Shown: piece by piece, positions 5,092 through 58,673 of the stretch
Layout: each line of letters starts with the position of its first letter
How positions within the stretch are numbered: position 1 is the first letter of the stretch
NCBI GenBank assembly: GCA_003971905.1
Contig: RSEE01000084.1
Span: 244,291-308,290, forward strand
Length of the DNA stretch: 64,000 nt
Reading direction: 5' to 3'
Source: Moniliella sp. 'wahieum'
Lineage: Eukaryota > Basidiomycota > Moniliellomycetes > Moniliellales > Moniliellaceae
The notes under the pieces: model-generated
What the model was told of the DNA's origin: nothing
Database searches by the model: none
Seen by the model: the letters and a program-made list of their open reading frames with translations, nothing else
Program-made: the position numbers and the translations under genes

Positions 5092-5407
5092 GCGTCCATT
5101 TCATTGACAGAGCTTAAGGCTGTGGGACAGGGGGAACGCTACGTCTAAACCTAACCGTTCACCTTGCGGGGGTTACTTGGAAGCGCCACTAATGTCAAGG
5201 AATCAGGGGGATCGCCAGGATATCAGGACCCTCCGGTTCTCGCCATCCGGTCCCGTACCCTAGGAAGCGCGTGTGGAGACACGGATGAACGTGGTTGACA
5301 TCCGAGCGAGGAACCATTTCCACTGAGACTTCACCAATGCGCAAACAACTTGCCCGCCGTCTCGGTGCCGCAGTATCCTCGCGTCGTCAAAACCAGGGGG
5401 AAAAACG
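5092..5407. repeat. Dispersed ~315-bp repeat, copy 1
   Basis: This sequence is clearly related, by eye at roughly three quarters identity or more, to 49836-50160. Shared blocks include TCATTGACAGAGCTTAAG at the left, CGCCAGGATATCAGGACC in the middle, ACACGGATGAACGTGGT further right, and GCGTCGTCAAAACCAGGG at the right end. It has no open frame conserved between the copies. It may be a degenerate transposable-element end, a solo LTR or a non-coding RNA gene. A 25-bp echo (ATCAGGACCCTCCG...) sits at 6553-6577. Confidence 0.8.
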
Positions 5408-8400
5408 ACTCTTGAGTGCGTCCCTGGTACTTGGATCAAGGTTATATTATTAGTTGACGGTGACGTTGACGTTGAACCTACTTTTAAAGCTCTGTTTTGA
5501 AGGGCATCGAGAGAGTCTTTTATATAAAAGAGAGATACTTGAGATGTGTTCGAGCTCCTATCCCGCGTAAAATGAATGTATGGAAAGTGAATCGACATCA
5601 CAATACGATGTCATGCCATGCCTGCGCCTTCGCTCATCGAGCTCATCTTTGTCTGAATTAATATGCATTTTCAGTCAAGACCTCGTCTATCCTCGTCTCT
5701 ATGCTCTGCTTCCTCTTCTGCACCCCGTCGTCTGTTGCTTTTCTCGGTCTTCAACGACGCCGTTTGTTTGGTCAGGGTTCTGTACTTTCTCATAGTTATA
5801 AGAGCGGGAGAGTGTAAATCTCAACAATTAGTGAAACCTCTCGCTTTGTGCCACCGTCGGGGCTAAGGTCGCTAAGACGAGGGAGAGACCAATGAGATGA
5901 GAGGAAGACAAATGGAAGAATCCCGTCCTGGTTGCGCTTCCTTTCTCTTCTATACAATTAATATGTTCTCTTCTCTTTTCCCGTTCCCTTGTTCCCCCAC
6001 ACAAGAGTTTTCAGACGCTATACCTCTCTGAGAGGGCCGATCATTAGTGCACAACGTCCCTTCCCATCTATCCGACCAAGTAAGCCTCTCTTCTGATTCC
6101 AGCCAAACCTCCTTCTCCAGTCAGTGTAGTGCTCTTTTTTCTCCCTTGGTTTTGTTTTCAACAATCCTCTACGCCGCTCCCTGGCCCAAAATCCGTTCTC
6201 TGTCATTCACAGTGCAGTTATGTCACATATTAGAAAAACACACATATCTCTGATAATGATCCCCCGTCTGAAGCCGACGTGAATCACAGTGGTCAGAGTC
6301 ACGACCCCAATTGATCGAGGTTGGAGAATACAGCTCATCTCGGATCAATCATACGTGGGTGGGAAAAAAACTTCGTATGTGGATGATATGCATTGGGGCA
6401 TACATGGCATATGACTATTATCGCCGATGGGCCTATAGAGGATTGAGGGAGACGGGTGGGAGGCAAAATACAGGCTCCAGAACCCAACATCATACCCAAT
6501 TTCAATAGATGAAACCAGCCGGAGATGCCAAAGCAGTGGGTATCAGAGAAAATAATCAGGACCCTCCGTTCTCATCATGACGGCCATACATCGCTTAACA
6601 AACAGTGATCAAGTGGGTCTGATCCTGACAATCGAAAACCACCATAGAAGTCCATCGCGGGCGTCCTCTGGTACTCGACGCGCAGCCCGCGCCTTCCTTT
6701 TAATTAGACCTGTGCCTCAGGCTATTCCCATGCCCGATCCAGTCGGCGCACCCACTGCCGCTCCCTCCGTCCTACTTTGTATGTTCTACTCCCTCTAGGG
6801 CATAATGTCTCGATTAGCTGCAGGATGATCACTGACGACCCCCACTACAGCTATTTAAGAACTTTCAACGCAAGAGGGATGATGGGATTGCGTTGCCATT
6901 CGTTTTACTCTGGTTGGAGTGCAATCTTTTTCTGAATGAAGTGCCCCCTTTTTCTGCACGATCCATCGGTCTTTTGCGCCGCACCATAGCAAACATCTGA
7001 TCCGATTGTTTTCTTCCCCCCGTAGGGGTCGGAATCTTGATGCAGTGCTGCTTGCGCCCAACCGCATCCTCAAAAGTATACGTTGGTCTTGCTGGGCCAC
7101 CACAGAGAGCTACTATGCTATACTAACGGTAGATATATGTACCCCCAAGTAAATGATGCAAGCGTCCCACCCTCAAGTTCTTGACGCGTCCCGTCCATCG
7201 TTACTTCTACACCCTCCGCGGGAAGCAGCTCGAGCTCTACGGTGCATAGCCAACTATGGTGCATCCATCATGTATCCCTCTCTCCTATCCGTCTTTTTCT
7301 CGGCAGAAACTAACATGCCAAAAGTATGTAGGAAAAGACTGTGCGGGTGGACTACTGTTGGGGCTGACAGACGGTACTAACAGAGTATTCGCCTATTTTT
7401 CATTGTGTTAGCAGTGAGTGCAGGATGTGTGGAAGGTGGTTCATGTTTGGGAGCCAGGGCTAGGACAGGCACCGTTTGTGGCTGGTGCAGTTGCACGCAG
7501 CTGTGGACTTATATCGGCTATTATGATGCCTTGTTTCTACATTTCCTTTTCGCCCCAGAGCCTCACCTGGCCAAGAACGGCTAACAGGAGATGGAGATGG
7601 GGAGGAAAAGGATGTGGATCATATTTATCGAGTGGAAAGAGGGCGGGGTATATATGCCTCGGAGAAGAAGAGATCATGCGAGCTAAATTACGCAGAGAAA
7701 GAAAGGGGAGCATAGGCAAAGGGGGGAAACAGGGTTTAGATTAACAATCAGAGACCAACAGTCAACCCGGTGACTAGAAGGGCGACCATGTGGGTCTGAT
7801 CCCGACAACCGCAGGAATCCATATAGAAGTGCGTCAGGTTGGGGGCAGGCTGGGCGCGGTGCTATTTGCTTTTGTCGCGCATCGCATCTTGACCTAAGCG
7901 GGTTTTCGATTGGGGGGCCTATATGCCCCCATGGACTCGGCGTTACCAAAACGGTCCGGGATCGCAGGCAGTGCGGCATCAGTCCGTTTTGACCTCGTCA
8001 CCTTCATAATTGGGCCCAAGTATGTTGGGCCCAATGCCCCCCACACATGCTGCGCCATATGCAAACGGCAGGCTCACTGGCGAATGTAGCGCTGCCGCCG
8101 CTCCATCGATTTTGATTCGACGTGATGCGTATCCGTCTCTCTCTCACATGCACGTCCTTGGCTACAGTGGCGCCAAAAGGCCATCGTGCTTGAACAGCCC
8201 GGCTTGTCCACGGAGTGTTTGATGGTGCAGTGGGCGGCTCTCTCTGCTGTCGTTGCCATTGCCACTGCCATGCCTGTGTATTGGGCCTGGTTCTGGTGTC
8301 TGCGTTCAGGGTCTCAGGCACCAAGCCTGGCCTCAGCCTCAGGCTGAGGCTGGCGCTGAGGCGCTGGGGGTGATTAATGCTTAATGATTGCAACAGCGCT

Positions 8401-17473: not shown

Positions 17474-17618
17474 AGTTCCCTGCTCATTATTATTTTCGGC
17501 TGCTGAACTAGCGCTGACCTGTTTTTATCCCCACTCTTTTGCTGCACCGCCCCTTGCAATGAGGAGACGTCTAGCTTACGCTGCATTTCTTGTACACAAG
17601 CAAGGACGAGGCAATGAA

Positions 17619-18391
17619 TCATTGCTTGGGCAGCACTTTTTCAAGCCAAGTTGCGATGTGCTCCACCTCCTCCATACAAACACTGTGGCCCATATTCTTG
17701 TAGGTGTGGAACTCCAAACCGGCATACTGACCCTTGTGCGGGCCATCGCCAATTTGGCGGAAGGGTCCGAAATGGAGGTCATCCCTGATAAACTTGACGG
17801 CACTCGGGGCAAACGAGTATTGCACTACCGGATCTGCCTCCCCATGGCCATGGAACGCAGGCACCAGGGTGGCGACTCGACATTTTCAAACCATGCCTGG
17901 ATCTTGCTCCGCAACAGCAGCCGGCCGATAAGGCAATGAACCCGCCGACCGGCCGTTTCTCCTCTGACACTGAGGAAAGACCGGCGAGATAAGCAGAGCC
18001 GCACCCTGACTAAATCCCATACACGATCCTTTCCCGCGCGATCTGGGTGCCGGCCAATTCGGGACCAGTCCCTGCTCTTCCGCCCGAGCAAGAGCCTTGA
18101 TCGCCTCGAGTGACTTGAGCAGCCCGGCCTCGTCCTCGTTACCGTCGGAGACGTTGAGCTGGCGAATGTCGAACCAGGCCGTCATCTTGCTGCCCCCATT
18201 GAGCGTGCGTGATGGCTGCACTGGAGCTGTGGGCAGGACAAACCGCACGTGGCTCAACGATGGACGACGAGACAGCATCTCACACACATCCACCCACCCG
18301 GCCCCCGTGTCTCCGAGACATGGGCAAAGATGACACTGGCCGTCGGGGCTCCCGATGCTGGGTTGATCACAAGGGTCTTCAAGACGCTCAT
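17619..18391 (-). CDS. Acyl-protein thioesterase / phospholipase-carboxylesterase, copy A (frame-broken)
   Basis: An alpha/beta-hydrolase that would remove palmitoyl groups from proteins or hydrolyse lysophospholipids. ATG at 18391 gives MSVLKTLVINPASG. The nucleophile motif GFSQGA (about 17995), the Asp segment ADPVVQY (about 17820) and the catalytic His in YKNMGHSVCMEE (about 17680) are all visible. It is strongly similar to the intact copy B just upstream (19230-20003), so this is a tandem duplication in the same orientation. At least five frame changes (for example about 18320, where one G is missing, and 18060, 17990, 17950, 17870) break it. All three catalytic residues survive, so consensus error is as likely as decay. 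The stop is at 17619. Confidence 0.8.
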
Positions 18392-19229
18392 GCGGCCAGA
18401 GGTGGGGTCCACGATTGGGGGTACCAGAGACAGAGGTGGTGGTTGTACTCGGTGTGCCGAGGGGATTGGGGCCGTCCATTTGTACCACCACGCGCCGCAA
18501 TGCCACAGCAGCGCCGCCTTCCATTCCGTTCCGAGACCCCAGACCCCCAGGGAACGCAGCACGCTAAGCGTGTTTATTACGTGCCCCGACCCGCCGGCCA
18601 TAAGGCCCACGCCCGTTATAAGGCCCAAGGGTAACCGGTAAGCTCTGCAACCCAAGGACAACCGTACTGTGCACTGACATGTACTGACATGCGACACGTG
18701 TTGTTGCACCGATGCACCTATGGCTCTGGCATTCCTGTTGTGCCCCCACATAGTAGAGGGTGCGGCCATCACCATCGGTGACTTATTCGTTGGCGGTACC
18801 ATGATGCATGGCGTGGTGTCAATGAAGCCACTGAATTCTGCGCCTTAATCCACTGGGCCATACCCTCGTACAAGCACTGATGATGACAGAACGCTCTTTG
18901 GCCCTAGTGCGCCCACGAGGTGTCAATATTCACCTGGCTCATCCTTGTGATCGCCCATTCGATAGATTCCGATGCATTCCACTGTAATGATCCGGCGCCA
19001 CTCATCTCGCGGCCACTTGCAGACAATGAGGATCGCCTAAACAGTAGCAGAGAAGCATGGGGATGGCGGTACCATCTACGTAGGCTAGGATGATGGGTTG
19101 GTTAGCGCCGGAACGTTGTGGCGAAGCACACGGCTTTAGATCTCGGCGACACTTATCTCGCCAAGAGAAGAAACATCTACTACTCCGCCTCCTCCCCCCT
19201 ATGCACAAAAGCAAGGGAAACATAGTGAA
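18392..19229. other. Spacer between the two thioesterase genes
   Basis: About 840 bases that must hold the copy A promoter and the copy B 3' end. A short TGTACTGACATG/GACATGTACTGA repeat is present at about 18675-18700. I see no gene. Confidence 0.4.
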
Positions 19230-20003
19230 TTACTCATTGGGCACCATCTTTTCGAGCCAAGCTGCGATCGCATCCACCTCCTCCATGCAAGCGCTGTGGG
19301 CCATGTGCTTGTACGTGTGGAAATCGACGCCGGTGTACCGGCCCTTGCGCGGGCCATCGCCAATTTGACGGAACGACCCGAGGCAGAGACCTTCCTTGAG
19401 GAACTCGACGGAGCGCTGGCCAAACGTGTATTGCACCACCGGGTCTGCATCACCATGGCCATGGAACACAGGCAACTGGGGGGGAGCCTCCGCATCCTTA
19501 AACCAGCCTTGGACCTTGGCTCGGAGCGGGAGCCAGCCAGACAAAGCAATGAACCCAGCCACTGGGCGCTTTTCCAACGAAATGGAGGAAAGGCCTGCGA
19601 GGTACGACAAGGCGGCCCCCTGACTAAACCCACCATATACGATTCTCTCCCGGGCAATCTTGCCAGCTGCATCTGTGCCGGTGCCTTGCTCCTCGGCCTG
19701 CGCAAGGGCCTTGATGGCTTCGAGCGACTTGAGAAGACCCGCCTCGTCCTCTTTGCCCTGGATATCGTCGAGAGTATGGATGTCGAACCAGGAGGTCATC
19801 TTCATGCCAAAGTTGAGCGTGACCGGCTGCACAGGGGCGGTGGGCAGAACGAAGCGCACGTGGCTCAGGGACGGGCGACGAGACAGCAATTGACACACAT
19901 CAATCCACCCGGCACTCGTGTCCCCGAGGCCGTGTGCGAAGATGACACTGGCCGTCGGCACGCCTGAGGCGGGATTGATCACGATGGTCTTCAGGGCACT
20001 CAT
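19230..20003 (-). CDS. Acyl-protein thioesterase / phospholipase-carboxylesterase, copy B (intact)
   Basis: A single uninterrupted 257-codon frame starting at ATG 20003 (MSALKTIVINPASG), about the usual length for the family. It shows the oxyanion segment HGLGDTSAGW, the nucleophile elbow GFSQGAAL, the Asp in GDADPVVQY and the catalytic His in MAHSACMEE. The residue before the His-Ser pair is Ala where copy A and most family members have Gly. No signal peptide or membrane segment, so cytosolic. Its promoter is shared, head to head over 451 bases, with the aminotransferase gene starting at 20455. Confidence 0.9.
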   Translation of the reverse strand: MSALKTIVINPASGVPTASVIFAHGLGDTSAGWIDVCQLLSRRPSLSHVRFVLPTAPVQPVTLNFGMKMTSWFDIHTLDDIQGKEDEAGLLKSLEAIKALAQAEEQGTGTDAAGKIARERIVYGGFSQGAALSYLAGLSSISLEKRPVAGFIALSGWLPLRAKVQGWFKDAEAPPQLPVFHGHGDADPVVQYTFGQRSVEFLKEGLCLGSFRQIGDGPRKGRYTGVDFHTYKHMAHSACMEEVDAIAAWLEKMVPNE

Positions 20004-20454
20004 GGCACAACCGTTGATGGAGGTAGTGAGCGGCAACAGCAATCCGCACGTCCCCACCTGGCCCGGCTGCGGATTGCGGGATAGCGTGTTGCACCGAAGG
20101 GAGTGGGCAAGCGGTCCCAGATTTTAGATCACCGATCTCAGATCTCAACGAAAATGCTAACTTGACGCGTGGCATTGAATATTGAACGTTTAACTTTCCC
20201 ATTGATGGAACCTGCCGACGGCTCTTGCGTCCGCCGTTCGAATTCCGCCTCCTCGGGGGCGAGTGGAGAAAGACGGGGTGACGCGTGACGGGTTACCGGT
20301 TATGCAGAGGCCGCACTTGTGTTGTCCACTTATCAATGTCCGCTGCCAGTCAGCATCTCCCCGTGTGACTCGGGTTGCTGCCATATTATTGGCCGAGAGC
20401 CGCTCCCCCGCTCAGGCCCTCAGGCCCCACCGCCAGTCCATCCACTCCGTTACT
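20004..20454. promoter_or_regulatory. Divergent promoter region, thioesterase copy B / aminotransferase
   Basis: A 451-base gap between two head-to-head start codons must contain both promoters. It includes GTGACGCGTGACGGGTTACCGGTTA-like inverted sequence near 20278-20302, and AGATTTTAGATCACCGATC at 20122. No confident TATA box is present. Confidence 0.5.
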
Positions 20455-20747
20455 ATGCCCGTCGCACACAGTGCTCCTCCCCACACCACCCCTCCCCCCA
20501 TGTCGACTACGCCAGCACGTGGATGAGTGCGGCGCTCAACACATGGCCCTCGCCTGCGATCCGCGGTCTGTTCCCCTACGAGCAGGTGCCCGGCATGGTT
20601 TCCTTCTTGGCCGGCAAGCCCAACCCGGGTGCCTTTCCCGTGCGCGGCATGTGCGTCGACGTCACCAACCCACACACCGGCGTCCCGGACAAGTTGCGCG
20701 TTTCCCCCGAGGACCTAGAAAGCAGCTTGCAGTACGGCATGTCGGCC

Positions 20748-20752
20748 GGCTT
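20748..20752. repeat. Target-site duplication, left copy (GGCTT)
   Basis: The five bases GGCTT directly abut the left LTR and are repeated exactly at 25807-25811 after the right LTR. Within the aminotransferase they occur once in the restored coding sequence. Confidence 0.95.
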
Positions 20753-20912
20753 TGTCGGCCTCGCTACTACCACAGAATGTGAGCACTGAACGTCGTATTT
20801 GACTAAGAAGCTTCTGCGACTGACTCGTCCAGAAGACTGGTGCGAGCTCGGAAGGAATGAAAGCTGACTCACGTGACTCAGGGTCCGCGCGGTCCTAGGA
20901 CGGATGTCAACA
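20753..20912 (-). repeat. 3' LTR of copia element
   Basis: 160 bp, beginning TGTCGGCC and ending TGTCAACA on the plus strand, so TG...CA ends. It matches 25647-25806 with a single difference (T versus G at about 20799/25693). It contains the palindromic composite site at 20865-20880, and the last six bases encode the end of pol, including its stop. Confidence 0.97.
20865..20880. promoter_or_regulatory. Palindromic composite TGACTCA/CACGTG site in LTR
   Basis: The 16 bases TGACTCACGTGACTCA contain two bZIP (Gcn4/AP-1-type) TGACTCA elements sharing a central CACGTG E-box; the same site is at 25759-25774 in the upstream LTR. In the 5' LTR it would lie in the U3 promoter portion. Binding by a particular factor is inferred from consensus only. 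Confidence 0.6.
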
Positions 20913-23900
20913 CCCCCGCTGACCGGAGGGCCCAGTCATGTGGACTGGATCCATCTCCTCGACGCGGAGTTGAGCAAGATGGCTTGTCAGGGCGGGACGG
21001 CCGAGAGGCTTGGTGAGGACGTCCGCTGGGTTCCTTTCGCCGGGGATGTGTACAAGTATGGCCTCGCCCGAGTCCACGTGTTGCCGTACATTGTGGTACC
21101 GGATCTTCAGCTCTCGGAGCTTGCCGGTGCTGCCAAATTTGTGGGCGAGATCGACGACAGACTTATTGTCGCAATACCAATGAATGGGTGTACCCTCGCC
21201 GATGGCCCCAAGCTCGATCATGATGTTCTTGACATAGTTGGCGTCAACCAGTCCATCATATCCTGCCGTATATTCGGCGGCGGCGGTACTGGTAACGCTC
21301 TTCGGCTGAAGAATGGATCGCCACGACACCGGCACACCGTACACCATCAGTAGGCATCCAGATGTGGAGCGTGCCTGGATGGGATCTCCCGCCAAGTCGG
21401 AATCTGTATACAGCGCAATGGCCGGTGCATCTGATGTTGGGGTCAACCTCAGGCCCTTTCCTCGAGTATGGTACAGGTAGCGAAGGAAGTCATCGACTGC
21501 TTGATGATGCTGCTGCGATGGGTCGGCAGCGGCTCTGCTGAGGGCCGTGATAGCGAAGAGGGAGTCAGGCCGGCCCATTCGTGCAGCCCACAGTCCCGAT
21601 CCGATCTTCCCCTGATATGCCTTGCGCAAGGCTGGGAGGGATGGGGGTTCAGGGTCGGCACGGGGCGGTATCATCCGTACGGGATGTGGGAGAGTCCGGA
21701 TCCACGGGGCTTTGATGTGGTGCTTTGCCACCACTTCCTCGATGAACTTTGGTTGGCTCAGGTACAGCTCCCCACCGATCCGATCGTATTGGCATCCCAG
21801 GTGGTAGTGAAGGGGACCGTTACCACGAACATCAATGTGTGTGTTTATCTCGGCCATAAACTCCTCGTACTTTTGGTGTGACTTGCATGCGAGGAGCAGA
21901 TCGTCGGTGTGGACCGCCAGGAGGATCTGCTCACCCGGTGGTGCAGCGCGCACGAACAAGCAGGGCTCGGTCAAGCTTTGCGTGAAGCCGAGCTTGTCAC
22001 GCAGCAGGTTCCGGATGTATCGTGCCCAGTTTGCTCCGCTCTGATGTAGCCCGTATAGACTCTTCTTGAGACGCCACACGCGACCACCCGCTTCGGGGAA
22101 GTAGGGGGGTGGGCGGATGTAGACTGCTTCTTCGAGGGGGGCGTTCAGGTACGCTGCATTGACGTCCGCCGAGAAGAGGCCAAACTTATACTTCTCGGCC
22201 AGCACGACGAGGGTCAGGATGGCAGGTGTGCGCACCGATGGTGCGAACGTCTGGCCCCAAGTCTCGGCCGATTGTTGGTGTCCGCCCGCGACAAAGCGCG
22301 CGCGGTGGCGCAGGAACCGGCCCTCGGCGTCCGTCTTTGTGGTGATGCGCCATAGTCCTATGAGGATTTGTGCACCCGGTGGTGGGTACGTAGCCTCGTA
22401 GGTGCCGTATCGCGCGAGTGTGGCCACCTCGTCGGCCATAGCCTGCTTGACCATGGCAAAGGAGGGGTGAGTCTCGAGACCCTTGAGCGTCTTGGGAGCG
22501 AGGGGTACGCCATCCTTGGTGAGCTGAACCGTGTCCGGGTGGATGGGTGCGCTGAGAGCAGTCATGGGGCGTATTGGAGGTTGAACTGTGTCGGCAAACG
22601 GGGGGGCGGATGTGTCAGGTAGGGGGCGGGCGATGCCGATCTCTGGTGCGGCGCAGTGGGGCGTGGCGGCTGCAGCACGAGCATGGTAGGTCGTGTCGGT
22701 GGGGTCGTCAGCGATTGGGAGTGTGTGCAGGTCGAGGGAGGTGCGGGTGGTGCGCTGGCGGAGGGGGTAGCGGCGCGGAGGGGGGGTGGTGGTGGGAGCG
22801 GGTGTCTGGGGTGTGGCGGCGGTTCGGGGCATGGGTGCTGCCGCGGCTGGCGGAGTAGGGTTAGCGTCTTTTTCACTGTCGATTTTAATTTGAGGTGATT
22901 TGGAGATGTCGGGTGGGAAGTGGTCGGGGTGGAGATGGGGGTAGATGGCGTTGCCCCATTTGTACGGTTTCGACCAGCGGTAGGTGAAGGTACCCAGGGA
23001 TGGTTGGTATGTGGCGAAGAGCCATCCCTTTGATCCGCGCTGATGGTGGTATCCTACCAGCATACCTTCCTCTGCCCGCGCGCTGAGCTTGTGCTCGCGG
23101 CGTGACTCGGGCAGATGGAGGTATGCAACGCGGCCAAAGGGTTGCATCGGTAACGAGTATGCGTGGCCTTTGTATCGCTCAAATCGCGATTTGTTGTCTT
23201 CCCCGGATGTTTTGAGTGGCATTTGGTTTTGGGTGAAGCACGCAGCGTGGAGGCTGTGTTCCCACCAGTCCGACGTCGGAAGACCTGTACCCAAGAGCAA
23301 CTGCCTTGCACGAGTCGTTATGGTTCGGATGGCACGCTCAGCCACACCGTTGCTAGCACTCTGCCCCGGGATTGTCCGTTCTGACGTGATGCCTTGCTCG
23401 TCCAGAAAAGGTTGCAGTGCGCTTGTCAATTCGGGGGCGTTGTCCGTGCGCAAAGTCCGCAGCAGTCTGTCCGGGCCGTAGCGTTGCTCCCGCAATATGA
23501 GGTTCCGCAGTTCCTTCGTTGCAGCGCCCTTTGTCGGGATCGCTGTGGTGAAGACGTACCGCGTGAAGTCATCAACGGCGACGAGGGCGTATCCGTGCCC
23601 CATGCCGGTTACCCGGGGGAGGTCTACTACGTCGACGTGGAGGACCTCGAAAGGTCTTTTGGATCGGAGGCGGTCCCGGCTCGGATGGGGCGATGCTGTC
23701 GCTAGTGCCACCGCGCATGTTGGGCAATCCCACTCTGAACGACAGAGGGAGATATGCTTGGCTGTGACGCGGAGGCCTGCGGTTTCCGATCGTGTAAGCC
23801 AGGGGAGGAGGTCGATGGCTGCGTGGTTCCAGCGTTTGTGGGCTTTAGAGACGTGGTCCAGGGCCAGGGATGCTGCGAGGGAGTTTGGGGTTGAGGGTGG

Positions 23901-24347
23901 GTCGGCCGGTTTGATCGGTTTGGTCGCCATGGCCCGCAGGGGTGTGGGTGGCGTTCGCGGGTTGTGTAAGATCGTGAATTGATAGTCACTGCCGGTTACT
24001 TTTCGTAGGGTGGATCCTGGGTTACCAAGCCAGATACCCTTCTGGTGTGGGGCGAAGTATGATGCGATTCCGGTGTTCGACAGGTGTGCTACACTGACGA
24101 GATTTCGGCTGAAACGGGGCATGTATAGGCTGTTGGGGAGTTTTATCTCCATTTGGTGTCCTCCTAAGCATCGGATACGGATTGTGGCCGTGCCTCGTCC
24201 TTCCGCCTTTACATGTGTCCCGTTAGCAACCTCTATCTCGTCGTCGCAAGGGGTCATGGATGTGAAGACGGATTTGTCTTTCCAAATGGATGGGAATGCC
24301 CCACTGTCATATAATGCCCGGATGATTCGCATTTCGCCCCCGAGTTC
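20907..24347 (-). CDS. pol: Copia Pol: protease, integrase, reverse transcriptase, RNase H
   Basis: Open without interruption from the codon after the Gag TAG (24347) to the stop at 20907; first internal ATG at 24332, 1,141 codons from there. Order: protease LYDSGAF; integrase HHCC finger (HKRWNH ... CPTC) and core acids in HVDVVDL, LRTDNAPEL and GVAERAIRT (the last two one residue closer than the usual D35E spacing); reverse transcriptase FSADVNAAYLNAPLEE, SLYGLHQSGANW and the catalytic box HTDDLL where YVDD is typical; RNase H with YTDSDLAGD and YCDNKSVVDLA. The last codons overlap the polypurine tract and 3' LTR. Expression presumably needs readthrough of the Gag stop. Confidence 0.96.
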   Translation of the reverse strand, partial: ELGGEMRIIRALYDSGAFPSIWKDKSVFTSMTPCDDEIEVANGTHVKAEGRGTATIRIRCLGGHQMEIKLPNSLYMPRFSRNLVSVAHLSNTGIASYFAPHQKGIWLGNPGSTLRKVTGSDYQFTILHNPRTPPTPLRAMATKPIKPADPPSTPNSLAASLALDHVSKAHKRWNHAAIDLLPWLTRSETAGLRVTAKHISLCRSEWDCPTCAVALATASPHPSRDRLRSKRPFEVLHVDVVDLPRVTGMGHGYALVAVDDFTRYVFTTAIPTKGAATKELRNLILREQRYGPDRLLRTLRTDNAPELTSALQPFLDEQGITSERTIPGQSASNGVAERAIRTITTRARQLLLGTGLPTSDWWEHSLHAACFTQNQMPLKTSGEDNKSRFERYKGHAYSLPMQPFGRVAYLHLPESRREHKLSARAEEGMLVGYHHQRGSKGWLFATYQPSLGTFTYRWSKPYKWGNAIYPHLHPDHFPPDISKSPQIKIDSEKDANPTPPAAAAPMPRTAATPQTPAPTTTPPPRRYPLRQRTTRTSLDLHTLPIADDPTDTTYHARAAAATPHCAAPEIGIARPLPDTSAPPFADTVQPPIRPMTALSAPIHPDTVQLTKDGVPLAPKTLKGLETHPSFAMVKQAMADEVATLARYGTYEATYPPPGAQILIGLWRITTKTDAEGRFLRHRARFVAGGHQQSAETWGQTFAPSVRTPAILTLVVLAEKYKFGLFSADVNAAYLNAPLEEAVYIRPPPYFPEAGGRVWRLKKSLYGLHQSGANWARYIRNLLRDKLGFTQSLTEPCLFVRAAPPGEQILLAVHTDDLLLACKSHQKYEEFMAEINTHIDVRGNGPLHYHLGCQYDRIGGELYLSQPKFIEEVVAKHHIKAPWIRTLPHPVRMIPPRADPEPPSLPALRKAYQGKIGSGLWAARMGRPDSLFAITALSRAAADPSQQHHQAVDDFLRYLYHTRGKGLRLTPTSDAPAIALYTDSDLAGDPIQARSTSGCLLMVYGVPVSWRSILQPKSVTSTAAAEYTAGYDGLVDANYVKNIMIELGAIGEGTPIHWYCDNKSVVDLAHKFGSTGKLRELKIRYHNVRQHVDSGEAILVHIPGERNPADVLTKPLGRPALTSHLAQLRVEEMDPVHMTGPSGQRGC
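20913..20920 (-). other. Polypurine tract
   Basis: On the minus strand AGCGGGGG lies directly next to the 3' LTR start (TGTTGACATCC), the expected place for plus-strand priming. It doubles as coding sequence for the final residues of Pol. Confidence 0.8.
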
Positions 24348-25592
24348 CTAGTAGTCAGCTGTGCCCGCATCAACGTCAATCACTTCAGACTCGGGAGAGC
24401 TCGCTCTCTGAGCGACGTGAGCGTTGGCTCGGGGGTTGCGCGGAGGGACAACAGGTTTATTAGACGTCGCGCTGCGCCAGGGTTGGTTGGTGCGGTCTTG
24501 CCCCTTGGTCTTTGTGTCCGCGAGGTTGTCGTCGCCGGCTTTGCCCCCGCTGGAGTTTTTTCCCCCGCTGGTGGGTCGTCCCCCGCTGTCGGGTCGAGTC
24601 CAAGGCGTTCCTCCGTTGACCGGCTTGCCTCCGTTTCTCTTCCTTTCTCCACCGGGATACGTGGCGGCTGGTATGTCCATCACGGCCTGCCGTAACTTGT
24701 CTAGACTCGAGCGCTCTTCACGCTGGCGAATGCTCATGTCGCGTAAGCCGAGTAGGATCCCAGTGCGTTCCTGCTCTTCCGTAAGTGGGATGCCCGCTCG
24801 CGTCAGGCTTGCACTGATCTCTTCCATGTAGTCGAGGTAGTCTCGACCCGATCGGTTTCCTTGGTCGGCCGAAAAGTAGCGAATGAGTAGAGGCCCTCTG
24901 TTTGCGGTAGGCGTATATCCATACCGCTGACGCAGCATGTTCAGCGTGTCCTGGGTGCATGATATTTCGTGGTGGGTGCGGATCGTCCGGAAGAGGGTTG
25001 ACGGCATGGCTTCCCTAAGAAGGTTGTGCAAGCGTCTGTCGAGGTCCTCGGTGAAGTAGCGGGAGCTGCGACCATTCTGGACGACGTCGCTTGCGTGGGG
25101 GTGGGCATCTGTTATCGCGAAGAGAAATTCGTCTTCCCAAGCGCTGTAGGCGGACGGGTCTTTGTTCAGATCAGGCCACTTGATATTCTTGGTGGGAGAC
25201 TCGCGTAGTGATCTGTAAAGGTCGTACTCGGGTCGCGAGGCTGCGCCTGTAGGTGCCCCCAAAGTTGCGTTGGGTTGAGTTTCCATTTGGTGGATGTTTT
25301 GCACCACAAAATTCGTAGCCCGTCGAACCCAGTTTGTCGTGATAGACGTAGGTTCGTCCTTCCATCCAAGCCACTCGGCTCTGTCGTGTATAGCTCTGTT
25401 GATCTTCTCTTTAACGACATCGATGTCGTTCGTCTTCTTGAACCACAGGTGCGCTTCGGCGCAAAGCATCATGAGTTCCTCGTTGTCGGTGCCAATCGGT
25501 GGCGGATCGCGACCGGTTGGTGTCCAGTAATCGCGCTTGTTCACCATTGTGGTGTCGCTGACCGAGAGATCGGTGTTAGCGTTGGCGCCCAT
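24348..25592 (-). CDS. gag: Copia Gag
   Basis: 414 codons from ATG 25592 (MGANANTDLSV) to TAG at 24348-24350. The middle is helical with NIKWPDLNKDPSAYSAWEDE and YLDYMEEISASLTRAGIPL, typical of copia Gag (UBN2-like) capsid segments. The C-terminal 110 residues are Gly/Ser/Lys-rich and basic (GGRPTSGGKNSSGGK). No CxxCxxxxHxxxxC zinc knuckle is present, so RNA binding presumably uses the basic tail. The frame continues into Pol after the single TAG. A leader of about 54 bases separates the 5' LTR from the ATG. Confidence 0.93.
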   Translation of the reverse strand: MGANANTDLSVSDTTMVNKRDYWTPTGRDPPPIGTDNEELMMLCAEAHLWFKKTNDIDVVKEKINRAIHDRAEWLGWKDEPTSITTNWVRRATNFVVQNIHQMETQPNATLGAPTGAASRPEYDLYRSLRESPTKNIKWPDLNKDPSAYSAWEDEFLFAITDAHPHASDVVQNGRSSRYFTEDLDRRLHNLLREAMPSTLFRTIRTHHEISCTQDTLNMLRQRYGYTPTANRGPLLIRYFSADQGNRSGRDYLDYMEEISASLTRAGIPLTEEQERTGILLGLRDMSIRQREERSSLDKLRQAVMDIPAATYPGGERKRNGGKPVNGGTPWTRPDSGGRPTSGGKNSSGGKAGDDNLADTKTKGQDRTNQPWRSATSNKPVVPPRNPRANAHVAQRASSPESEVIDVDAGTADY

Positions 25593-25646
25593 GGTTGTGG
25601 GTGTAGTTTTGGCCAGCTCAGGGATGAGCAGATAAGGATGTAACTC

Positions 25647-25806
25647 TGTCGGCCTCGCTACTACCACAGAATGTGAGCACTGAACGTCGTATTGGACTAA
25701 GAAGCTTCTGCGACTGACTCGTCCAGAAGACTGGTGCGAGCTCGGAAGGAATGAAAGCTGACTCACGTGACTCAGGGTCCGCGCGGTCCTAGGACGGATG
25801 TCAACA
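25647..25806 (-). repeat. 5' LTR of copia element
   Basis: 160 bp, same ends as the left LTR. It carries the promoter of the leftward element. It includes the composite site at 25759-25774 and a CCTAGG palindrome at about 25789. There is no clear TATA box. Confidence 0.97.
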
Positions 25807-25811
25807 GGCTT
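25807..25811. repeat. Target-site duplication, right copy (GGCTT)
   Basis: Exact copy of 20748-20752. It continues directly into aminotransferase codons for LPSLVKTL. Confidence 0.95.
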
Positions 25812-27018
25812 GCCTTCGCTCGTCAAAACCCTGCATGGATACCAGAAGAAACTCCATGCCAAGCCCGACTTTGACCCGCACAACCCTGGCGTCCACACAC
25901 CTTGGGCCACCATGACAGGCAATGGTTCCCAAGACTTGATTTGCAAGGCGATGACTGTCCTCACGATCCGGGCGATACGCTGCTCGTGGAAGGCCCTACG
26001 TTCCCGTATGTGCTTTCCCTGTATCAGTGTACCCGCAGCTAATGTGTCTATCTTCAGTGAGGCTACAGGCGCCGCTGCACTGTTGGGTAACCAGTTGTAT
26101 AGCGTCCCTACTGATGCCCGAGGTCTGGAGCCCCGCGCGCTGCGCACCACGTTGGAGCAGTGGAACAGTCACCCCAAGTCGAAAGAGATGCGCTACCCCA
26201 AGGTGCTCTACACCATTCCTACTGGCGGCAATCCCAGTGGTGCCACGGCGGACGAGGAGCGTAGGCGGGAGATCTTGTCCATTACCCGCGAGTTTGGACT
26301 GCTCCTTTTGGAGGACGATCCGTACTATTTCCTCTCCTTTGACGGCTTGGGGCAAGACCCGTCCAGCCGCCCGCGCCCGAAGAGTTACCTTGCCCTTGAA
26401 CAAGAACAGGTCACGACCTGGGGGGATGGGCGCGTGCTGCGCTTTGACTCCTTTAGTAAGATCATGGCTGCAGGCATGCGCATCGGCGTCGCTACCGGCC
26501 CTGCACCTTTGATCAAGGCGATGGAGCTCGTTACAGGCACCTACCAACTCCAGCCGTCGTACACGGCGCAGGCCGTTGTCCAAACCGTCCTCCGGCACTG
26601 GGGATTCGACACCTTCCTTGTTCATTGCGACAAGGTTGCCCACTTTTATCTCGAGCGGCGCAACTTTGTCGAGGCGGCGTTGGAGAAGGTGCTGGGCAGT
26701 GGTGGCGATGGAAAGCAAGTGTCTGTGGCCACTTGGGTTGTACCCTCGGCTGGTATGTTCTACTTCCTTAAACTGCGTCTGCCCCCTACCCCTGCCAGCA
26801 AGGTTGGCGACTCCAAAACTTTGATTGAAAAAGTGGCTCGCGATAAGGGTGTCTTGGCCGTCCCAGGCTACGCATTCACCCCGGGCGTGGAGGAGCCGAG
26901 CGCACATGTGCGCATCTCCTTTTCCATTGTGCCCCTCGACCTGGTGGAGAAGGGCTTGCAACGGCTGCGCGAGTCGGTGCTCGAGACCTGGGCCGCAGCC
27001 GGCCTGGAGCTGGCATGA

Positions 27019-29185: not shown

Positions 29186-30120
29186 GTGAGAGTCTCCCCG
29201 TCCCCGCCTCCCGCTCCCACGCGCCACGCGTTGGGCGCCGAATCCCTCTCCCGCATAGCGTAGCACAGAGACTGACGTTGTCTTTTTTTACCCGGTGTAG
29301 CTCACGCCTGTGATCGTTTTCCAGCTGCAAGCTTTTGCACGCGCCAGCCCTGGCCAGCGGACTAAGAGTCGTGTTTTTTTATTCTGTCCCCCTTTGCCTT
29401 TTTTGCCGCAGTTGTAACACTTTCTGTGCACTGTACAACACATTCCACACTACACTACACACTGTTGTGTCTGACATCTCTTTCTGCTCCACATCCACCG
29501 ACGTTATAGACATAGTTTCGTTCCATACCCATTAAACGTTTTAAACGATGAAGGTACGATGACCGTTGAGCGTTGAACGTTGAACCCAACGTTTATAGGT
29601 TGAGCGCCTCGATACTAGAACTACTGCCCAGCTGGCGCTCTTGTCCAGAAATGGGCGGGACTGATCCCCGCTGGCGCACATCGGCATGAGAAAGGATATT
29701 GCCGCTGATCTGAGGACCCCATGGGCAGGGCCTACTGACGCACAAACCACCCTAATAACCGACCTTGCTACTTGCTTCGCTGAGAGGAAGTATAAGAATG
29801 TGCGGATTCTGGTCTGTGGTAAAACCTTCTCTTCCCCGCGTTCACGACCCGCTCTTCCGTGGCAGTTTTGCCATCGGGGGCAGGGGCAGTTCCCCCTGGC
29901 CTGGTTCGGGGTGATTTTGACGTCCCCCTAGCAAGTGGCGCTGTCTGCAACCCACAAGGTATACTTTTCGACTCCTTTTGACACTGCCACTGGACTATTA
30001 CGTGGTGGTTACACTCACATCCACATCGACACCACTACCTCAGCCTGGTGTTCTTGCTAGGCATCATCCTTCTCCGCCCGGACGCGTCCTCAGGCCTCAC
30101 AGCTCCCCGATACCCTCGGC
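29186..30120. other. Intergenic DNA with TTGAACG microrepeats
   Basis: No gene supported. GTTGAGCGTTGAACGTTGAAC at 29565-29585 is another palindromic repeat tract, preceded by AAACGTTTTAAACG at 29534. The 81-codon frame at 29686 has no recognisable content. Confidence 0.45.
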
Positions 30121-30128
30121 TATATAAG
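30121..30128 (+). promoter_or_regulatory. Probable TATA box upstream of the Zn2Cys6 gene
   Basis: TATATAAG about 290 bases before the first usable ATG (30415) would give a leader of roughly 250 bases. The spacing is longer than for the pirin gene, so this is tentative. Confidence 0.35.
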
Positions 30129-30414
30129 GCCCTGCCCTTCTCATAGCCTCCTGTATACCTCTCAGAACCACATCCTCCATTCTCCTCCTTCACAGCTAAA
30201 TCTCTCTTGTAGCCTGCAGTCTCTCCCACTTGAGCCGAGGCCGAGTTTTGAAGCAGTCACCTAGTCACCCTCTCCATGGTGCGAAGAGTGGCGCAGTGCT
30301 CCATCGCCCTACGGGTGACCAGTGCTAGTGACTAGTGACTGGCAGCCGGTGGCGTTTATATCATCGCCGGCTTACCTCCAGCATTCGGGCGTAAGCGCTT
30401 TTGCGCTCTAGCCT

Positions 30415-49835: not shown

Positions 49836-50160
49836 GCATCCGTATCATTGACAGAGCTTAAGTTAAGACTGGGACAGGGAAACACTACGCCTAAACCGAC
49901 CCGCTCATCTTGCGTATGTTGCTTGGTAGCGCCACCCCTGTTAAGGAACCAGGGGAATCGCCAGGATATCAGGACCCTCTGGTGCCCGCCATCCGTTCCC
50001 ATAACCGAAGTAGCGCGTGTGGACACGGATGAACGTGGTAGACACCCGAGCGAGGAACTATTTCCATTGAAAGTCAGTAGTCCTTCCAGTGCGCAAGCAT
50101 CTTGCTCGTTATCTTAGTGCCGTAATAGTATCCCCGCGTCGTCAAAACCAGGGGAAAACG
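49836..50160. repeat. Dispersed ~325-bp repeat, copy 2
   Basis: Homologous along its whole length to 5092-5407 in the same orientation, with scattered substitutions and small indels. Shared blocks include TCATTGACAGAGCTTAAG, ATCGCCAGGATATCAGGACC, TGGACACGGATGAACGTGGT and GCGTCGTCAAAACCAGGGG. There is no conserved open frame, terminal inverted repeat or target duplication that I can see. Confidence 0.8.
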
Positions 50161-56661: not shown

Positions 56662-58673
56662 ATGTCAAGATTCTTCCGTCGAGATCGCGCATCCGCTCCG
56701 TCCTCTGTCACTCCCACGTCTACCAGGCCTTCTTTGCCCTCCCATGACGAGTTCGTGCCGGACACTTTTTTATCCTCACAACCCATCCCTCCCTCTTGGT
56801 TCCACGACGAAAAAAAGGTTGATGGCAAAGACACAGACTACCCCCCAGAGAAGATCACGGGCGGAGAGACGGTGAATGTCAAACAAGGCAAGTTGGACCA
56901 GTTTGCTGGGAAGGTCAAGTCGTATGGCGATCTCTCCAATATCGATCCTCAAGTGGCCAAGGAACTCTTTGATCAAGATGAGGTACGAGAGGCATTCACC
57001 TCTCGACAACTGGCAATGATCTCGCTGGCGGGTATATTACATTCTATACAAGGAGAAGAGGGAGGTATTACCTTTATAATTGACCTACTTTTTCTCGTGA
57101 CTCGCAGGTTCTATTGGTACGGGTGTCTTCTCGGAGTGGGCAAAGCCTTGGCACATGCTGGTCCCTTGTCGCTTTTCCTTGGATACTTGGTCGTTGGCGT
57201 CTTTGCCTGCGCGATGCTTTTTTGCCAAGCGGAAGTACGTGTTGCTCCTGATCTAGGTGATGCTGTTGGGGCTAATATTCAGCAAACATACAAACACAAC
57301 TAACACCTCTTTTCCCCATTTAGCTTGCCACACTCCGCCCCCGTGAGTGGGTACTATGTCCGTCACAGTGGCATGTTTGTTTCCAAGTCGTTGGCCTTTG
57401 CAAGTGGCTGGTCCATGGTTTACAGCCAGATCGTCTCTATTCCCGGCGAGTTCAGCGGTGCCGCAATTCTGATCCAATTCTGGACAGAGAGCATCTCCCC
57501 CCGGTGTTCATTACCATCTTTGGTGTGGTCCTACTCGTCACGAATCTCGCGTTTACTCGTATTTTTAGCGAGACGGAATACGCGTTTTCCATCATCAAGC
57601 TCACCACTGCCATCGGCCTTGTGATTTTCTGCATCTGCATCGACCTTGGTGCAGGACCGCACGGCATATGACGGGCTTTCAGTACTGGCGGAATCCCGGA
57701 CCAATGGTCTCCTATCTTGCTAAAGGCGCGGCTGGGCGATGGTATGGCCTATGGTACACGCTAACGAACGCTGCCTACAGCTACCAGGGAATCGAGACGA
57801 TCTGTGCCGCGGCGGCCGAAACGCGCAATCCGCGTCAGGCGCTGCCGCGGGCAGCCAAGCGCGTCTTTGTCCGTGTCGGGTTGATTTACATTTTGCTCGT
57901 TTTCTGTGTCGGGCTCATCGTCCCGTCCAACGACGAGCGATTGGTCAGCTCGTCTGGAACTGCATCCGCATCGCCCTTTGTCGTCGCCGCTTCTAATGCT
58001 GGCGTTCGCGTCTTGCCGAGCATCATTAATGCCATCACGCTCACCTCGGCATACAGTTCTGCAGCCTCCGGCGTTCTATCAGGCTCTCGGTCCGCCATGG
58101 CTTTGGCCAACATGGGTTTTGCCCCCAAAGCATTCCTCAAGACCCATCGCTGGGGCGTGCCGTACATTGCTATCCTTGTCGTAACCGCCGGCTGGCCGTT
58201 GGGGTATACGGTGGTCAGTTCCAGCGCAACCCAAGTATTTGGTTACTTCCAAAGCATCACTTCTTCTCTCTGGCTCTGTATCAGTGGTTTGTTACCTGCC
58301 TTATCTTTTTGCGGGTATACTATGCTATGCGGGTCCAGGGTATCCCACGCTCTGCCTTGCCTTGGCAAGCGTGGGGTCAGCCCTATCTCGGCTGGATTGG
58401 CCTGGTGGGCTCTTTCTTCTGCCTTTTCACTGGTGGCTTTGAGTTCTTTATCCCGGGCAACCAGGAACCTCAAACCTTCATCTCAGCCTACTGTGCCCCC
58501 ATCATCAACATCTCCCTTCTCCTCGGGTTAAGTTCTACAGTGGCACACCGTTTTGGATTCCTCTTGAGGACGTGCCAATCCAACCCTGGCTCACTCAGTA
58601 TCGGCAAAACCCGGAACCACAAGAAGTTCCACCCAAGGGCTTGATTCGCATCATTAGTTGGATTTGGTTCTAA
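56662..58673 (+). CDS. Amino-acid permease (fungal APC/AAT family)
   Basis: A 12-helix proton-coupled plasma-membrane amino-acid transporter. ATG at 56662; hydrophilic N-terminus of about 110 residues. Intron 57032-57107 splits the signature so that ISLAGG joins SIGTGVF; intron 57235-57323 (GTACGT...TTAG) follows CAMLFCQAE. Then SGYYVRHSGMFVSKSLAFASGW, GEFSGAAILIQFW, YSYQGIETICAAAAETRNPRQALPRAAK, ITLTSAYSSAASGVLSGSRS, MGFAPKAFLKTHRWGVP and, after a frame change at about 58300, MRVQGIPRSALPW and GWIGLVGSFFCLF. The last coding stretch (KFYSGTPFWIPLEDV) ends at TAA 58671. Other frame changes near 57150, 57490, 57540 and 57665. Confidence 0.93.

Follow-up and report, generated by a model that had tools for sequence, protein, structure and literature searches.

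The window analysed here, a stretch of 64,000 nucleotides, forms the end of contig C84 in the assembly of Moniliella sp. 'wahieum' (69.5 Mb, 223 contigs) and contains a complete Ty1/copia retrotransposon lodged in an aminotransferase gene of the Aro8/KAT-II type. The element spans 5,054 bp on the minus strand (20753-25806), antisense to its host gene. Its termini are TG...CA and it is bounded by two 160-bp long terminal repeats (LTRs), the 5' LTR at 25647-25806 and the 3' LTR at 20753-20912 (both minus strand), which differ by one mismatch only (T at 20800 in the 3' LTR, G at 25694 in the 5' LTR). A perfect target-site duplication, GGCTT, adjoins the element on the left (20748-20752) and on the right (25807-25811). 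Where a tRNA primer-binding site and a polypurine tract would be expected, GAGTTACATCC follows the 5' LTR and fits no tRNA that we know of, and GCGGGGG stands before the 3' LTR.

The element carries, in a single reading frame of the minus strand, a gag-like open frame of 414 amino acids (24351-25592), a UAG stop codon (24348-24350) and a pol open frame of 1146 amino acids (20910-24347). Queried as 20910-24344 (1145 amino acids), pol matched Pfam families in the order typical of copia: Pol_BBD, the integrase core (rve, residues 229-328), the SH3-like SH3_retrovirus and RVT_2 (residues 654-878, 8e-37), with the integrase ahead of the reverse transcriptase. The only solved structure matched by pol was chain 7z0h_W, named Integrase (E 3.2e-9, residues 204-450), which we take to be the Ty1 integrase. 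The gag-like frame gave no Pfam match, and neither an aspartic protease nor an RNase H was found by Pfam in the frames of the element; by eye we spotted motifs that are presumably DSGA-like and RNase-H-like. The near-identical LTRs with TG...CA ends, the 5-bp duplication, the placement of integrase before RVT_2 and the match to 7z0h_W are features shared with Ty1/copia elements (integrase of PDB 7z0h), and they identify the element as a Ty1/copia LTR retrotransposon.

The host gene lies on the plus strand in two parts. The 5' part (20523-20752) is counted from the first clear ATG at 20523, a putative start, and reads into the LTR. The 3' part (25812-27018) comprises an exon, an intron at about 26006-26057 (GT...AG, placed by eye) and a second exon that runs to a TGA. 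When searched as 26062-27015, the second exon matched Aminotran_1_2 (PF00155) above the cut-off (E 6.5e-15), and its best relatives of solved structure were the human kynurenine/alpha-aminoadipate aminotransferase (KAT II, E 1.3e-48) and a putative Aro8 (6s8w, E 1.9e-37). The 5' part alone (84 residues) matched no Pfam family. In its domain and nearest solved relatives the gene resembles the Aro8/KAT II family; it differs from the members of that family in being split by the element, and its activity on aromatic amino acids, kynurenine or aminoadipate is putative. Ahead of the element the translation is ...Q-Y-G-M-S-A-G, and beyond it the reading resumes with L-P-S-L-V-K. The frame opened by the ATG at 20523 enters the LTR and meets a stop after 88 residues, ahead of the region that matches the aminotransferase family, so the interrupted copy should yield no active enzyme. 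From an ATG at 25798, in the last bases of the right LTR, translation could run in frame into the aminotransferase sequence beyond and give an N-truncated product.

A second copy of the region is present on contig C52. Apart from indels and insertions the whole window is collinear over 64 kb with C52:201330-268989; the 55,938 aligned bases contain 1,555 substitutions (2.8%), and 800 indels separate the two contigs. At this homologous locus the target site is uninterrupted and has one GGCTT, a natural empty site, and the 5' and 3' parts of the gene are continuous. The gene also has relatives further away. A DNA search with 25812-27018 returned eight matches. Two are the window itself and C52 (96% identity); of the other six, four share 67-69% identity with the query and two match over part of it at 72-73%, and these six form three pairs with 93-96% identity within each pair. 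Matches to the second exon were found on 14 contigs besides C84 and C52. An earlier interpretation made from the window by itself (the sequence-only reading) had described a copia element with two 160-bp LTRs, one difference between them and a perfect GGCTT duplication, sitting in an Aro8-type gene whose frame A-G-L-P-S-L returns once the element and one GGCTT are removed. This anatomy holds: the repeats and the duplication are in place, domain order and integrase match agree on copia, the Aminotran_1_2 match and the KAT II and putative Aro8 structures agree on the gene, and C52 carries the predicted frame across a single GGCTT. Its proposal to search the assembly for an empty site and a paralogue was borne out by the C52 site and by the second-exon matches elsewhere.

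The element belongs to a family that has spread through the genome. The 5' LTR end (167 bases) has at least 41 genomic matches, one of them a 35-base fragment, and at least 31, counting that of the window, show no difference along the full 167 bases; these are lower bounds from the best 40 of 184 candidates that were scored. These matches, and the perfect duplications described below, exclude chance as an explanation. A 30-base string from the junction between gag and pol occurs exactly 53 times genome-wide. We fetched 20 copies with their flanks and added that of the window, giving 21 copies. A perfect 5-bp duplication flanks 14 of these, the window copy among them, and all 14 duplicated sequences are different. 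Across 91,134 columns, 18 full copies aligned to the window element (more than 4,900 aligned columns each; L031 and L045 were dropped as partial) showed 40 substitutions and 207 indels; with the two partial copies included, the figures are 43 substitutions and 225 indels in 96,247 columns. Judged by substitutions, these copies are about 60 times closer to the window element than C84 is to C52, which places the burst far later than the divergence between the genome's two copies.

The same comparison of occupied and empty sites was extended to other members of the family. Eleven of the 20 fetched copies, full length and with a perfect duplication (L031 and L045 excluded), were tested by joining 90 bases of each flank and scoring the best 40 of 257 candidate matches. 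All 11 joined flanks found an uninterrupted match across the join. Three of the insertions (L030, L034 and L036) have repetitive or element-like flanks, and their match may be another copy of a repeat. The remaining eight clean sites all have a match resembling a homologous empty site (79-96% identity, compared over 180 bases), making nine of nine with the window. The element is thus one insertion of a recent burst, present on one genome copy only, and the insertion is a real, young and ordinary copia event. The claim of a fresh insertion that disrupts this copy of an Aro8-type gene is supported.

The single LTR difference is a poorer guide to age. Reverse transcription renders the two LTRs of an element alike. 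The state seen in the window (G in the 5' LTR, T in the 3' LTR) recurs in two of the 20 fetched copies (L041 and L042), while L045 has T at this position in both LTRs and four of 39 3' LTRs are one base short there. In this survey the 5' LTRs were selected by their match to the query and the 3' LTRs were unselected. A one-sided difference shared in this way more probably reflects a repeated miscall, or conversion, than elapsed time, and dating by the LTR pair was rejected. Taking the single difference as a sign of age, as had been done from the window by itself, is therefore unsafe; youth is better judged from the number of substitutions that separate the copies.

Together, these data make it very probable that a recently amplified Ty1/copia member inserted, by integrase-mediated retrotransposition, into one copy of an Aro8/KAT-II-type gene that has a homologous second copy. 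Ordinary integration of a member of the amplified family would produce the 5-bp target duplication, and translation of the struck copy would stop after the 88 residues mentioned above. The other copy and the paralogues would probably cover for the interrupted one, and the insertion may persist as a neutral or mildly deleterious event that is heterozygous or specific to one homeologue.

Several observations weigh against this account. Seven of the 21 copies (L037, L039, L040, L044, L046, L047 and L048) have 5-bp flanks that are off by one, shifted or unlike each other; in some of these, indels at the ends may be the cause. C84 and C52 could be alleles, the nuclei of a dikaryon or the homeologues of a hybrid, and any zygosity, ploidy or depth assigned to them is presumptive. 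The gene on C52 has four frame-breaking indels relative to the window copy, so a working copy there, or among the paralogues, is putative only. Finally, the frame of a neighbouring thioesterase-like gene shows no indels between the two contigs, implying that noise in the assembly is uneven and that real decay of the gene is possible.

The last two observations bear on the alternative that survives best, in which both genome copies of the aminotransferase locus were decaying pseudogenes before the insertion, and the element hit a gene that no longer worked. Apart from the element, the window copy has two frame-breaking indels, of which one lies near 20,490, ahead of its first clear ATG, and the other near 25,960; the four on C52 lie at other places. 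The lack of indels in the thioesterase frame nearby and the paralogue matches elsewhere also favour this alternative. However, indels are five times commoner than substitutions among the near-identical element copies. Between C84 and C52 there is one indel to every two substitutions, and 477 of those 800 indels are single-base. Actin, moreover, is matched on C24, C36 and C79 in abutting or overlapping pieces that lie in different frames, and the frame of one aminotransferase paralogue is split likewise. We infer that these indel patterns are the marks of an unpolished long-read assembly. As the assembly is this noisy, the frame breaks in both gene copies are no proof of gene death, and they were not accepted as such. 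Comparing the C84 and C52 genes at 389 codons, drawn from 20523-20752 and 26062-27015 but not from the exon stretch 25812-26005, gave a dN/dS of 0.156, a mark of past constraint on the gene. Together these findings point to indel noise in a gene held under selection, and prior death of the locus appears unlikely.

Much less probable still is that the strain is effectively null for this aminotransferase activity and has an amino-acid phenotype. The sequence-only reading had called the insertion a null allele, with consequences expected for metabolism unless a second copy or allele exists. For the copy in the window the term is apt, as only 88 residues are encoded from its first clear ATG, and the gene on C52 may be defective too. 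Extended to the strain it lacks support, given the empty homologous site and the second-exon matches on 14 further contigs; the proviso of a second copy applies, and the expected metabolic consequence is unsupported as it was worded. The insertion is not evidence of a null strain. That it is instead an assembly chimera, with an element copy joined into an intact gene, is scarcely credible: a high-copy, nearly identical family is the kind of repeat able to mislead assemblers, but the duplicated sequence agrees in every base with the target that C52 has at the empty site, and it is one of 14 perfect and mutually different duplications among the 21 copies.

The stop codon between gag and pol has a conserved surrounding. 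In the window the UAG and its 3' context read TAGGAACTCGNGGGC (24336-24350, minus strand), in frame between the two genes, and the junction string including the UAG is present in all 21 copies, which carries little weight by itself as the copies are near-identical. A comparison is provided by a second young copia element at C52:216731-222004 (L018, L019), which has identical 211-bp LTRs and an AGTGA duplication and is absent from the window. The two elements share 66-67% identity in two stretches of pol, and at the matching place, the end of its gag-like frame, the second element has TAGGAACTCGCGGGC. This 15-base stretch is identical in the two elements at 14 of 15 positions, the highest score of 712 windows taken along a 700-base alignment (mean 7.0 of 15). 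The genome has 75 occurrences of TAGGAACTCGNGGGC and none of the reversed control; in 73 cases CTGACNAN stands before it, and these divide into 53 of the first type and 20 of a second. The element on C52 was the one read among the 20 loci of the second type. Common to both copia families is the junction CTGAC-NAN-TAG-GAACTCG-NGGGC.

The shared junction may act as a compact signal for Gag-Pol expression that is independent of RNA structure, either as a UAG whose readthrough is set by the 3' context or as a gag stop that doubles as a 3' splice site; we put this forward tentatively, at somewhat less than even likelihood. Folding of 124 nucleotides from one codon before the stop was no better than that of shuffled sequences (z +1.36, pseudoknots not being modelled). 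CTGAC just upstream of the TAG resembles a branch point, and a donor-like GTGAGT occurs in the 5' LTR of both elements. Splicing as a route to pol was not adopted: it would be supported by donor-like motifs only, whose positions differ between the two elements, as do their consequences for the frame. Coding constraint could account for part of the conservation of the 15-base stretch in this comparison of two elements.

In having gag and pol in the same frame, split by UAG, the element is unlike Ty1, which uses a +1 frameshift, and like Tca2/pCal of Candida albicans, where an in-frame stop separates gag and pol (PMC2194720, in the part available). The same portion of that article describes in-frame gag-pol stops in Tca2, SIRE1 and murine leukaemia virus and leaves the mechanism by which the Tca2 stop is bypassed unexplained. 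In Tca2 the stop is UGA followed by a potential pseudoknot (PMC2194720, same part), while here the sequence is UAG GAA CUC. In-frame stops also occur in Ty3/gypsy elements of fission yeast (PMC10085805, available part). No copia UAG junction is described in the available parts of PMC2194720, PMC10085805 and PMC12810828, which does not imply its absence from print.

Elsewhere in the window, 6595-7581 (about 1 kb) and 29518-30171 (about 0.65 kb) have no match on C52 in the alignment. A dispersed repeat is found at 5092-5403 and 49836-50158 (78% identical) and also in a segment of C52 that the window lacks (about C52:226025-231210); no terminal repeats were found in the C52-only segment 225800-231400. 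Two tandem acyl-protein-thioesterase-like genes (Abhydrolase_2) lie at 17591-18392 and 19202-20004, are 74% identical and are both present on C52; the distal gene of the pair has a partial Abhydrolase_2 match only. In the wider genome, eight matches to the bacterial-rhodopsin family appear fungal, in keeping with the style of genes and introns, and a search for radial-spoke sequences had no match, a negative that carries no information. A partial amino-acid permease frame at 57569-58528 (profile positions 169-364 of 470) is consistent with introns or assembly indels that break the frame.

In this assembly, then, neither a broken frame nor a lone mismatch between LTRs should be taken directly for a mutation. 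Overall, the locus captures a very recent retrotransposon burst cleanly, with the empty site on C52 as a natural control, in a genome that allows its two copies to be compared at each locus. Should the UAG context common to the two elements prove functional, it would offer a simple and testable model of gag-pol expression in copia elements.

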